From Lentzea guizhouensis (lineage in GTDB: Bacteria; Actinomycetota; Actinomycetes; Mycobacteriales; Pseudonocardiaceae): a stretch of DNA of 64,000 nt. The DNA lies in the NCBI RefSeq assembly GCF_001701025.1, contig NZ_CP016793.1:2232001-2296000 (forward strand), given 5' to 3'. The translations under genes and the position numbers were made by a program. Of the stretch, positions 37,479-42,440 are shown in pieces (the stretch's first letter is position 1; the number at the start of each line of letters is the position of its first letter). Under the pieces are notes generated by a model that saw nothing but the letters and a program-made list of their open reading frames with translations, ran no database searches and was not told the DNA's origin.

Positions 37479-38624
37479 TCAGGCGAGTGCTTCGGTGGGC
37501 GACTGGCGTGCCGCCCGCACCGCCGGATACACGCCGGCGATGGCGCCGATGAGGACCGCCGACCCCACTCCCCCGAGCAGGGCGGGCCACGGCAGTGCCG
37601 CCGGCCACCGCTGGCTGATCGAATATCCGGCCGTGACCGCGATTCCCACGATCACGCCGACCAGCCCGCCGAGACCGGACAGCAGCACCGACTCGGTGAG
37701 GAACTGCCACCGGATCTGCCGCCGGGTCGCCCCGAGCGCCCGCCGCAGACCGATCTCCCTGCGGCGTTCCAGCACCGAGATCACCATCGTGTTCGCCACG
37801 CCGACGCCTCCCACCAACAACGCGACCCCGCCCAAACCCAGGAACAGCGCGTTGTAGGAGCTCTCCGCCAGCTGCTGGGCCTCCAGCGCCTCCGACGGCC
37901 TGGACACCTTGACCTCGTTGGACTTCTGCGGGTTCAGCGTCGGGCCGAGCAGGCTGCGGACGTTGTCCACCTGGTCGGGCGTGGTGCGCACGTAGACCGT
38001 GCCGGCGTGGCCCTCGAACCCGAACGCCTCCTTCGCCGCCTCCCACCCGACGAGCGCGGACCTGTCGATCTCCGGCGAGAGCGGCAACGGCCCGAGGATC
38101 CCCACGACGGTGAACCACTGGCCGTCGATCCACAGCTGCACACCGGGCCTGTCCACGCCCAACCGGGACGCCGCGGTGCCCCCGAGCACCACCGACTTCT
38201 CCCCCGGCGACAGCCACCGGCCGGCGCGGACCTCGGCGTTCAGCACCTTCAGCAGGTCCTGCTCGGCAGCCTGCACCTGCAACCCGAGCGTGTCGCTCGA
38301 CGGCACCAGGTCGTTCTTGCGGACGCTCGCGGAGAGCTTGCCCGTCGCGCTCGCCGCCGACACCGCACCGATCCGCTTGGCCATCGGCACCGCGGTCTCC
38401 GGCAGCTTGGCGTCCTGGCCGAAGAAGTCCTGGCCCGGCGCGGCGGTGAGCAGGTTGGTGCCCAGCTTGGCCATCTTCTCCTGCAACGCGGCGGCGCTGG
38501 AGGCGGGGATGCCGACGACCGCGACGACGGCGGCGATGCCGATCGCGATGCCCAACGCCGACAGCACGGCGCGGATCGGACGGGTCTTCATGCCGAAGAA
38601 CCCGAGGCGCAGCAGGTCGATCAC
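37479..38624 (-). CDS. MacB/FtsX-like ABC permease
   Basis: 381 residues from GTG 38624, preceded by GGAGG. N-terminal helix GFFGMKTRPIRAVLSALGIAIGIAAVVAVVGI, a periplasm-facing MacB_PCD domain of about 200 residues, then three helices from YNALFLGLGGVALLVGGVGVANTMVISVLERRREIGLRRALGATRRQI, the FtsX signature. Partner of the ATPase at 39515-40165 and adaptor at 40162-41214. Between it and the ATPase gene lies a TnpB remnant, so its transcription from the operon promoter may be disturbed, although its own ribosome site is intact. Confidence 0.9.
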   Translation of the reverse strand: MIDLLRLGFFGMKTRPIRAVLSALGIAIGIAAVVAVVGIPASSAAALQEKMAKLGTNLLTAAPGQDFFGQDAKLPETAVPMAKRIGAVSAASATGKLSASVRKNDLVPSSDTLGLQVQAAEQDLLKVLNAEVRAGRWLSPGEKSVVLGGTAASRLGVDRPGVQLWIDGQWFTVVGILGPLPLSPEIDRSALVGWEAAKEAFGFEGHAGTVYVRTTPDQVDNVRSLLGPTLNPQKSNEVKVSRPSEALEAQQLAESSYNALFLGLGGVALLVGGVGVANTMVISVLERRREIGLRRALGATRRQIRWQFLTESVLLSGLGGLVGVIVGIAVTAGYSISQRWPAALPWPALLGGVGSAVLIGAIAGVYPAVRAARQSPTEALA

Positions 38625-38639
38625 GACAACCTCCGATCC

Positions 38640-39514
38640 AGACCCTGCGTCGAGTTCGTGCAGTCGACACCAGTGGGCTGGTTTGTGTGCGAACGGCCTA
38701 CAAGTGCCGGGCCCACCCGAACCCTGAACAAGCCGCGGCCCTGTCGCGGACTTTCGGATGTGTACGTCTTGTCTGGAACAAGACGTTGAACGACCGGAAT
38801 CGTCGCTACAAAACGGAAAACAAGGGAACGTCGTATCGGGAAACAGATGCCACGCTCACCATCTGGAAGCGAAGTGACGTTCTCGGTTTCTTGTCGGAAG
38901 TGTCCTGCGTGCCCCTGCAACAGACGTTGCGCCACCAACACTCGGCGTTCCAGAACTTCTTCTCGAGACGCTCTCGCTACCCGCGGTTCAAGTCCCGCAC
39001 CGGCAGGCAGAGCGCGCACTGCACTCGATCGGCGTTTCGCATGCGAGGCGGTTCGCTGACGCTGGCGAAGATGAGCACCCCGTTGCCGTTCACCTGGTCG
39101 TTCACCGGAGTGGACGTTGGTGAGCTGAACCCGGCGACGGTCATCGTCTCCCGCGAACCCGACGGCCGCTGGTACGTGTCCTTCGCCGTGGACGTCCGAG
39201 ATTCTGCAGCTGCCCGGCCCGCGAACCGTGAGATCGGGCTCGACCTCGGGCTGAGGAACTTCGTGACGACCAGCGACGGGACACGGGTGCCCAGACCTCG
39301 AAGCATGGACCGCAAAGCGCGAAACCTCGGCTGCCGCACCCGGCACGACCGGGATCTCAACGCGGCGAAGAACATTCTTGCGGCTGGTCGAGCCGTAGCC
39401 CGGGGTTTCTCGGGCGATGCCTGTGGAGCTGATGTCAGACGGCAAGGGCCTTCCCTTCCGCTGTCGGCCGTGAACCAGGAAGCACACGCCGAGACACTCG
39501 GTTCGTGAGCGCAG
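38640..39514 (+). mobile_element. Decayed IS605/IS1341-type insertion inside an efflux operon
   Basis: Approximate extent: the DNA between the permease ribosome site and the ATPase stop codon is essentially one tnpB-like ORF, oriented against the operon. No tnpA is present. Ends cannot be placed from sequence alone. The tnpB stop lies only 6 bases from the ATPase stop, so the right end must overlap, or have replaced, the last codons of the ATPase gene. Confidence 0.65.
38687..39508 (+). pseudogene. TnpB (IS200/IS605 OrfB) with internal in-frame deletion
   Basis: 273 residues versus about 380-400 for full-length relatives. N-terminal OrfB_IS605 region is complete: AYKCRAHPNPEQAAALSRTFGCVRLVWNKTLNDR, FLSEVSCVPLQQTLRHQHSAFQNFF, RYPRFKSRTGRQSAHCTRSAFRMRG. 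RuvC-I is present (REIGLDLGLRNFVTTSDG). After RPRSMDRKARNLG the chain jumps to CRTRHDRDLNAAKNILAAG, so the segment with RuvC-II Glu and the first half of the zinc ribbon (about 120-125 residues) is gone, while the RuvC-III Asp-containing DRDLNAAKN remains. The frame is preserved across the junction. No cleavage activity is expected; decay or a nuclease-dead derivative are both possible. Confidence 0.85.
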
Positions 39515-40165
39515 TCAAACGATCACCCCGTCCCGGACCTCGATCTTGCGCGGCGCCCAGGCCGCGATGTCGCGGTCGTGCGTGATCATCACGATCGTCG
39601 TGCCGTCGGAGTTGAGGCTCTCCAACAGCTCCAGCACCCCCGCGCCGTTCTTCGTGTCCAGGTTCCCCGTCGGCTCGTCGGCCAGCAGGATCCCCGGCGT
39701 GTTCACCACGGCCCGCGCGATCGCGACCCGCTGGCGTTCACCGCCGGACAGCTCGTGCGGCTTGTGCAGCGCCCGGTGGATCAGGCCGACCCTGTCCAAA
39801 GCGGACATCGCGAGCGCCCGTCTCTTCGACCGCGGCACGCCGGCGTAGACGAGGCCGGAGGCCACGTTCTCGATCGCGGACAGGCCTTCGGTGAGGAAGA
39901 ACTGCTGGAACACGAACCCGATCGTGCGCGCCCGCAGCGCCGACAGGGCGTTGTCCGACAACGAGGAGACGTCGTGGCCGTCGATCTCGACGCGGCCCGT
40001 CGTGGGCTTGTCGAGCGTGCCCATCAGGTGCAGCAGCGTCGACTTCCCCGAGCCGGACGGTCCCACGACCGCGAGCATCTCCCCGCCCCCGACGGTCAGG
40101 GAGACGTCGCGCAACGCCTGCACGCCACCGGGGTACGTCCGGCTCGCGTGGTCGACGGTGATCAC
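39515..40165 (-). CDS. MacB/LolD-type ABC ATPase
   Basis: 216 residues from GTG 40165, overlapping the adaptor stop by GTGA. Walker [22 protein letters not shown]-loop GFVFQQFFL, signature [16 protein letters not shown], Walker [17 protein letters not shown], switch [10 protein letters not shown]. The chain ends EVRDGVIV, a few residues shorter than most relatives, exactly where the TnpB remnant begins, so the C-terminus may have been clipped by the insertion. Confidence 0.9.
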
Positions 40166-41214
40166 TCGGTGGTCACCACCTTCATGCCCTCGCGCAGGCC
40201 GTCGCCCTGGACCTCGACCTGGCCCTTGGCGAAGATGCCGACGGTGACCGGGACGGTCCTGCCGTCGTCGGTGACGACGCCGTAGCCGCCCTCGTTCAAC
40301 GCGAGCAGCGCGCCGATCGGGACCGCGAGCACGTTCTGCTTCTCCGACACGGTGAACAGCGCCGTGACGTTGGCGGTCTCCAGGCCCTCCGCGGCCGTGG
40401 GGTCGTCGACGGAGATCGTCAGCACGATCTTGGCCTTCTGCCCCTGGTTCGGGTCGCCCGCCGTGCGGGTGATGCCGGTGATGGTGCCCGTCGTGGGCTT
40501 GCCGCCGGTGATCGACAGCTCGACCTTCTCGCCCTGCTTGGCGAGGCGCTGCTTGGCCGTGTCCAGCTCGACGGTCACCGCGCGCTCGGTGCCGGTGACC
40601 TTCATCAGGTCGCCGCCGGCGGGGGCGCCGAGCTGGGCGGTGAGCGAGGCGACCCGGATGGCGCCCGGCTGGACCACGACGTCGCCGGAACCGAGCTTCC
40701 CGGTCTGCTCCAGGCCGTTCGCCTTCTGCCACTTCTTCAGCGCCGTGGCGGTGTAGTAGGTGAACTTCTCGTCAGGTGTGCCGAAGTCCTTGTACCCCAG
40801 GGCGGCGAGGTTCTCCTCGACCACCTTGACGTCGGGGCCGTTCGACATGCCCGACTCGAGGTCGCGGTAGAGCGGCAGCGAACCGTAGAAGAGCGGCACC
40901 GGCTTGGCGTCCGCGTGGAACACCGGCTTGCCCTGCTCGATGACGGAGCCGGCGTTCGGCAGCCCGGTGACGGTGCCGCCCTTCCGGCTCGACAGACCGC
41001 GTTCCGCGCCGAAGCCGAGCTGGCCGGTCATCTGCTGCTGGTCGGCGAGGTTCGTCTTCTTCACCGGCGCCGTCTTCGCCGGGTCGTTCTGCAGCGGTGC
41101 GGCGTTGGCCTGGTTCGACGCGACTCTCGTCAGGACCACGACCCCGCCGGTGCCGAGCACCACCGCGGCGACGAGTGCGGCGACGACGACCTTCCGGTTC
41201 ACGCGGCGCTTCAT
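40162..41214 (-). CDS. Efflux periplasmic adaptor (HlyD/MacA-like) with peptidoglycan-binding domain
   Basis: 350 residues. N-terminal membrane anchor [24 protein letters not shown], a lipoyl-like hairpin ([35 protein letters not shown]), an inserted PG-binding-1 helix bundle at about residues 120-170 ([43 protein letters not shown]), then beta-barrel and membrane-proximal domains. In Gram-positive bacteria such adaptors couple a MacB exporter to the wall. ATGA overlap with the upstream lipoprotein gene. Confidence 0.87.
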
Positions 41215-41724: not shown

Positions 41725-41760
41725 GGCGTTAAGCGAAAGGCTTTATCCGGCGCTTATGCC
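41725..41760. promoter_or_regulatory. Inverted repeat in the divergent exporter / two-component promoter region
   Basis: GGCGTTAAGCG at 41725-41735 and CGCTTATGCC at 41751-41760 face each other across 15 bp. Sites of this sort, TTAAGC/TTATGC half-sites about two helical turns apart, fit an OmpR-family regulator binding between the operons it controls. Confidence 0.45.
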
Positions 41761-41782
41761 CCGTTCGCGGAAACTAGGCGTC

Positions 41783-42440
41783 ATGCGTGTGCTGGTGGTC
41801 GAGGACGAACGGTTGCTCGCGGACACGGTCGCCGAGGGCCTGCGCCGGTTCTCGATGGCGGTCGACGTCTGCTACGACGGGGAGGCGGCCCTGGAACGCG
41901 TGGGCGTGCACGCCTACGACGTGGTGGTGCTCGACCGCGACCTGCCGCTGGTGCACGGCGACCAGGTGTGCGAGGCCGTGCACGCGAACGGCGGCGAGGC
42001 GCGGGTGCTGATGCTCACCGCGGCGGCCGGGGTGGACGACCGGGTGGCCGGGCTCGGGCTCGGTGCCGACGACTACCTGACCAAGCCGTTCGCGTTCGCC
42101 GAGCTGGTGGCACGGGTGCAGGCGCTGGGCCGGCGCGCGGCCCGCGTTGCCGCCGGTGCTGCGGCGCGCGGGGGTGACGCTGGACCTGCCGCGGCACCAG
42201 GCGTCGCGGGACGGGCGGTTCCTGCCGCTCTCGCCCAAGGAGTTCGCGGTGCTGGAGGTGCTGATGCGGGCGGAGGGCACCGTGGTGAGCGCGGAGGAGC
42301 TGCTGGAGAAGGCGTGGGACGAGCACGCCGACCCGTTCACCAACGCCGTGCGGGTGGCGGTGATGACGCTGCGCCGCAAGCTGGGCGCGCCGCAGGTCAT
42401 CGAGACCGTGCCCGGTGCCGGCTACCGGTTCGGCCCGTGA
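41783..42440 (+). pseudogene. OmpR-family response regulator, frameshifted between domains
   Basis: Receiver (41783 to about 42139): VLVVEDERLLADTVAEGL, VVVLDRDLPLVHGDQV (phospho-Asp), MLTAAAGVDDRVAGLGLGADDYLTKPF. The winged-helix DNA-binding domain is in another frame, about 42138-42440: RPALPPVLRRAGVTLDL...LPLSPKEFAVLEVLMRAEGTVVSAEELLEKAWDEHADPFTNAVRVAVMTLRRKLG...VPGAGYRFGP. A two-base loss in a CG run (GGCGCGCGG) explains it; repaired length is 219 residues. In the unrepaired frame the receiver runs on into the kinase frame, an artefact rather than a fusion protein. Stop overlaps the kinase GTG by GTGA. Confidence 0.85.

Follow-up and report, generated by a model that had tools for sequence, protein, structure and literature searches.

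The insert between the ATPase and permease genes of an ABC transporter operon of Lentzea guizhouensis is very probably the decayed remnant, seen in this genome only, of an old TnpB element lodged in the overlap of the two genes. The window analysed (64,000 nt) sits inside one contig of 9,997,872 bases. The minus strand carries, in operon order, a gene with a PG_binding_1 domain (40162-41214, adaptor-like by position), an intact ABC transporter ATPase gene (39515-40165) and an intact MacB/FtsX-type permease gene (37479-38624). The latter starts with a GTG at complement 38622-38624; its closest match among named records was a Lentzea permease, 96% identical. Comparison with 14 empty alleles delimited an element of 894 bp on the plus strand (38625-39518), running from the permease GTG to the ATPase gene. 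It is preceded by the target/TAM sequence TCAC (38621-38624, plus strand), whose complement, GTGA, contains the permease start codon. The original prediction had set slightly different limits (38640-39515), while rightly describing a 273-residue OrfB between the two genes that opposes the operon (plus strand, 38687-39508, 273 codons with a GTG start), its stop codon (39506-39508) lying 6 bases from that of the ATPase (39515-39517).

The TnpB ORF matched HTH_OrfB_IS605 (PF12323; E 1.3e-18, 66.6 bits against a cut-off of 21) and exceeded the NCBIfam guided_TnpB cut-off (NF040570; 132.7 against 100 bits). Its match to OrfB_IS605 covered only the first 79 of 120 positions and fell just below the cut-off (30.1 against 30.5). 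Alignment with relatives bore out the earlier reading that the GLDLGL and DRDLNAAKN motifs are kept. With respect to the closest copy at this locus, 80.6% identical in DNA outside the gap, 387 nt (129 codons) are gone in frame, so that the reading frame is continuous across the deletion, as had been predicted; its junction, at 39331-39332 (plus strand) and movable by a few bases, is present in the window copy only. The missing DNA covers the segment behind RuvC-I together with most of the zinc ribbon and the RuvC-II Glu, the loss of the last two having been proposed earlier. Since the RuvC-II Glu, one of the catalytic RuvC residues, has been deleted, the window copy is a degenerate derivative rather than a working TnpB and, lacking its catalytic centre, should have no nuclease activity. 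Elsewhere, the same genome contains a full-length TnpB cousin of 402 codons and other copies that are more broken or more distant. An Rfam search of the region gave nothing above cut-off but the antisense RNA family Sernc389 (RF02743), named for Saccharopolyspora, on the strand opposite tnpB (38911-39193, minus strand; 92.2 bits, cut-off 74). Sernc389 was also found opposite tnpB in all nine sources searched. In the window the match is partial (model positions 276-558 of 595), and the antisense RNA is putative.

Inspection of 24 genus genomes, including that of the window, identified the operon in 23, the 24th holding merely a permease with 54% identity. At the ATPase/permease junction of these 23 genomes, five contain a full-length TnpB (401-402 codons, no internal stop), one the deleted copy of the window, two a remnant (100 and 217 bp) and one a different junction; the remaining 14 are empty. 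The 22 loci other than that of the window were analysed again on named records, with full-length copies found in L. californiensis, L. xinjiangensis, L. flava, L. terrae and Lentzea sp. NBRC 102530, remnants in L. albida and L. jiangxiensis, and 14 empty sites. No TnpB was present at the junction in the five other-genus records examined (L113-L116 and L118, the six most distant loci having been left out). Orientation is the same in all eight inserts, each of which follows the permease start codon on one side and meets one and the same ATPase base on the other. Ten of the 14 empty alleles read exactly GATCAC-ACGATC, and the insertion is flanked on its left by TCAC with no target duplication. 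The deletion breakpoints of the window copy were found in none of the seven other occupied loci (one genome per species), and a conserved truncated form was rejected on this ground. With intact copies present at this very site in related genomes, the window copy looks like decay; the original prediction had favoured a decayed IS, and had named a full-length TnpB at the same locus and the lack of a conserved truncated form among the signs of simple decay. The RuvC Asp/Glu/Asp residues are all kept in four of the five full-length locus copies. The fifth (L078; named record L098, L. xinjiangensis) is full-length and has an open frame, but its RuvC-I Asp is replaced by Gly and its HDRD motif reads HGRD; among the locus copies, it is the leading candidate for a nuclease-dead TnpB.

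On the operon strand, a typical empty allele reads ATC GTG TGA, and GTGTGATC contains the permease GTG; this 4-nt stop/start overlap is present in 13 of the 14 empty alleles, the start being CTG in the other one. In occupied alleles, the right end of the element, AGTCAA (39513-39518, plus strand in the window), supplies on the opposite strand the TGA of the ATPase (39515-39517) and converts the junction to ATC GTT TGA (GTA TGA in the 217-bp remnant); therefore, the ATPase keeps its last residue and takes its stop codon from the element. The last ATPase codon specifies Val throughout, as GTG in empty alleles and as GTT in the window. The empty alleles thus rule out the idea that the right end had replaced the 3′ end of the ATPase gene. 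At the left end, the element provides a Shine-Dalgarno-like GGAGG (38630-38634, minus strand) that may serve the permease; it lies 5 nt (4 nt in one case) before the permease GTG (ATG in one case) in all eight occupied loci, remnants included. Both remnants and the window copy preserve the left-end CCTCC and the right-end AGTCA. It had also been suggested that the permease may be uncoupled from its ATPase; in the sense of a lost transporter this is unsupported, both ORFs being intact and a GGAGG lying at this distance, although the native 4-nt overlap is lost in the window allele.

The six TnpBs of the locus formed a single clade (support 100/99 for DNA and 95/94 for protein) relative to 11 other TnpB copies, a subset of those found in the genus. 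Pairwise dS values were 0.59-1.17 for the locus TnpBs and 0.47-0.79 for the flanking ATPase, while dN/dS was 0.11-0.23 for TnpB, the window copy's constraint before and after its deletion being pooled, as against 0.025-0.052 for the ATPase, calculated over 221 codons of which five lie upstream of its start. The insertion is old; its copies have, as a group, long been under purifying selection, and it is decaying in the window genome. Occupied species were scattered on a species tree based on rpoB, carB and polA (24 genomes, rpoB missing in one), requiring at least seven changes over 22 genomes, and a single clade of occupied species was rejected (p-AU 3.65e-07). As the occupied species are not a clade, vertical descent alone would require repeated exact losses or exchange between species; the insert thus had a single origin at the locus, followed by losses or interspecies exchange. 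In trees of the flanking genes, which have few firm branches, the genomes with full copies, G020 and G009, were paired with the empty G014 and G001, respectively. The species tree does not show these pairings, and they hint that the locus has been exchanged between species. A tree based on rpoB only was poorly resolved, with 10 of its 20 inner branches open. The scatter of occupied species, and the preference of the family for such sites in the genus, would also agree with repeated insertions at this site rather than one event. However, the single TnpB clade, the identical boundaries and a short right end common to the locus copies and unlike that of others make independent insertions very improbable, and they were rejected.

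Synonymous codon identity over residues 341-400 was 0.82-0.88 among locus copies and 0.83-0.96 among other copies, as compared with 0.48-0.78 and 0.43-0.68, respectively, over residues 1-340. This raised conservation at the 3′ end of tnpB (39332-39512, plus strand, in the window) fits a guide-RNA scaffold, and the 16 nt that follow the right end (39519-39534, plus strand), antisense to the 3′ end of the ATPase gene, would be the native guide, judging from their distance to that end. The 3′ region of the window copy folded no better than shuffled sequences (z -0.82), that of L015 (a hand-typed copy) slightly better (z -2.01), and a consensus fold of the six short right ends showed no covariation (none of nine pairs). 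By eye, longer hairpins between tnpB and AGTCAA were present in all nine non-locus copies inspected and in none of the six locus TnpB copies. A search of the genome with TCAC plus 12 nt of the native guide (16 nt in all, up to two mismatches) found no perfect TAM-plus-guide site. It detected 12 sites, against two for the reversed pattern; one of the 12 is the right flank of the locus itself and two others have a single mismatch. No match to the Y1 transposase TnpA (PF01797) was detected in the window genome (G000), although 11 of the 24 genus genomes contain one. Since TnpB-only elements are known, the missing Y1 transposase limits mobility, not family membership.

The original prediction had raised the alternative of a TldR-type regulator, that is, a dead TnpB that keeps its guide RNA and represses a promoter, perhaps that of the flanking efflux operon. 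Some TldRs, as it pointed out, sit by ABC transporter genes, as does the window copy. The RuvC of the window copy is inactivated by loss of the RuvC-II Glu, its scaffold-like 3′ region persists, L078 at the same locus is full-length with an altered RuvC-I Asp, and mismatched guide sites outnumber those of the reversed pattern. Nevertheless, the truncated form is not shared with any other occupied locus, so no conserved dead form is tied to a host gene; the 387 nt removed included structural parts besides catalytic residues; the right end has none of the longer hairpins seen by eye in other copies; and the one native guide reads the ATPase end, with none of its 12 sites being perfect. The window locus departs from TldRs (PMC13418256) in that its dead form is not shared, no perfect target of its native guide was found and its deletion runs through the RuvC core. 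The prediction of a dead-TnpB regulator was therefore left unsupported, and we consider such a role highly unlikely.

Under the preferred explanation, a decayed TnpB element, the element would have entered the stop/start overlap in antisense orientation, its host at the time being an ancestral Lentzea or a donor from within the genus. Its ends would keep the operon expressed by providing a stop codon for the ATPase and a putative ribosome-binding site for the permease; therefore, the insert would be nearly harmless and would last. The intact copies probably owe their retention to a function as guide-RNA-directed nucleases whose guide, the ATPase 3′ end, matches the empty allele. The window copy has lost its catalytic centre through an unshared deletion and has kept its termini. 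The persistence of intact copies may reflect RNA-guided removal of empty alleles, or inheritance together with recombination. A homing-like process, which is compatible with the decayed-element explanation, would have intact copies last because the guide, always taken from the conserved 3′ end of the ATPase gene, directs cutting of empty alleles, the element being copied in during repair; the window copy would be a degenerate stage. At this one site, alleles that are full or catalytically changed do occur alongside deleted, remnant and empty ones, the locus copies are under purifying selection with raised synonymous conservation over residues 341-400, their distribution is patchy, 11 of the 14 empty alleles read exactly TCAC followed by ACGATCAC, and a TnpB gene drive has been demonstrated on plasmids (PMC11870625). 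However, the tree of the locus clade shows no visible conflict with the species tree, which leaves lateral transfer of TnpB hypothetical, and the locus copies lack the longer right-end hairpins, the putative structure of their short ends having no covariation support. We regard homing-like persistence as plausible but less likely than not.

What is unexpected in these observations is the insertion niche, and that intact copies with no apparent mobility have lasted so long. Another 49 TnpB copies, from inside and outside the genus, were subjected to an overlap test, in which the flanks were rejoined; the frame of the upstream gene, through to its TGA in the overlap, and that of the downstream gene, from its start codon there, both had to be open with a coding-like third-position G+C. 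Left out were L057, L218, L226, L230, L243 and L244 (contig ends, or no TnpB start or right end), the weak or distant L067-L069, L228, L229 and L245-L260, and loci repeating tested copies. One copy (L221) was unplaceable, 10 lacked an AGTCAA end and 38 had one; of these last, 37 also had TCAC or TCAT within 200 nt upstream of tnpB, and 20 passed. Among genus copies sharing 67% identity or more with the 402-codon cousin, 14 of the 19 with AGTCAA passed (11 of 16 distinct sites), or 14 of 23 if four unscorable copies (L221, L223, L225 and L227) are counted as failures; once the window locus is included, the figure for distinct genus sites that have a recognised right end becomes 12 of 17. L239 failed, and L062, located before a precorrin-8X methylmutase gene, fell short of the threshold at 0.79. 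Outside the genus, two of 13 passed and one more was unscorable. In a TnpB lineage with about 50% identity, four of six passed, five of the six being in the genus and all following TCAT, with six more unscorable; the sites of L287, L288, L295 and L298, of this second lineage, are passing ATGA overlaps after TCAT. As a control, 14 of 783 GTGA/ATGA sites in the window passed (7 of 508 for GTGA). At the control rate, 12 of 17 sites would pass with a binomial probability of 6e-18, a figure that overstates the certainty since the left end is the best of several candidates per copy.

According to the protein ends, as judged by reading, the interrupted pairs include LivH/LivM, thiolase/LLM oxidoreductase and TreS/maltokinase, and in others the second member encodes acetaldehyde dehydrogenase, GlgB or chorismatase. 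Junctions shared by two genomes each were L014/L222 (LivH/LivM), L061/L215 and L063/L217. When 10 downstream proteins were compared with NCBIfam, the alignments of L056, L062 and L065 began at residues 1-4 and profile positions 2-6 (best or second-best model) and that of L060 at residue 14 and position 3, the remaining ones leaving the start unfixed. CTCC or CCTCC was located 4-6 nt from the start codon in 28 of the 33 recognised left ends, eight of which are from the window locus, with the full CCTCC in 23 of 33; at the passing sites L059 and L065, the usual CCTCC was not found at 3-8 nt. The apparent preference for overlaps might be survivorship only: insertions after TCAC would be random, those within genes would be purged, and those at a stop/start overlap, which preserve both proteins, would remain. 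The rarity of overlap sites outside the genus agrees with this, and we regard it as a serious contender, albeit one that falls somewhat short of even chances. Against it, intergenic TCAC sites should be harmless too and are commoner (93 of 521 TCAC sites lie outside crude coding-like ORFs, against 7 of 508 GTGA sites passing as overlaps), yet overlaps dominate in the genus. A bolder proposal is a TnpB lineage specialised on antisense insertion into 4-nt operon overlaps, whose ends rebuild the upstream stop codon and provide the downstream gene with a ribosome-binding site, and whose nuclease, with a conserved gene end as its guide, removes empty alleles from its own and other species; this we offer as a speculation more likely wrong than right. 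The niche was not described in the literature searched on TnpB or insertion-sequence insertion at start/stop overlaps, to the extent that these sources were accessible (few subscription journals being covered). Among TnpB matches from other genera, L277, L278, L280, L283, L284, L286, L290, L291, L294 and L297 have one or two in-frame stops inside.

The window element shares with IS200/IS605-type TnpBs (OMEGA systems) the protein family, a 3′ end of tnpB conserved as a guide scaffold would be, and a right end next to the guide; its TCAC target is the TAM measured for AmaTnpB (PMC10278001). It differs in consisting of tnpB only, with no Y1 TnpA match in the genome, in having ends that, at gene overlaps, restore a stop codon and bring in a putative ribosome-binding site, and in that the window copy is without RuvC-II and so does not keep the RuvC Asp/Glu/Asp set. 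Homing endonuclease genes and inteins likewise occupy conserved coding sites, are tolerated by the host gene and occur as intact, degenerate and empty alleles, like the window locus. The window element is instead RNA-guided and lies between genes rather than inside one, and its homing is putative. Should the specialised lineage exist, it would be an RNA-guided counterpart of the intein and homing-endonuclease cycles, with the window copy at the degenerate stage. The window copy itself reflects ordinary decay, but the kind of insertion site could explain how an apparently immobile TnpB lasts without harm to its host, and this one locus, which is intact in some species and catalytically changed, deleted, reduced to a remnant or empty in others, offers a ready-made series for studying what keeps RNA-guided nucleases in genomes.

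Near the operon, a response regulator is split over two frames (41756-42440, plus strand), with a receiver-like part in an ORF from 41756 and a Trans_reg_C domain at 42147-42440, which suggests a frameshift between the two parts, either in the gene or in the sequence.
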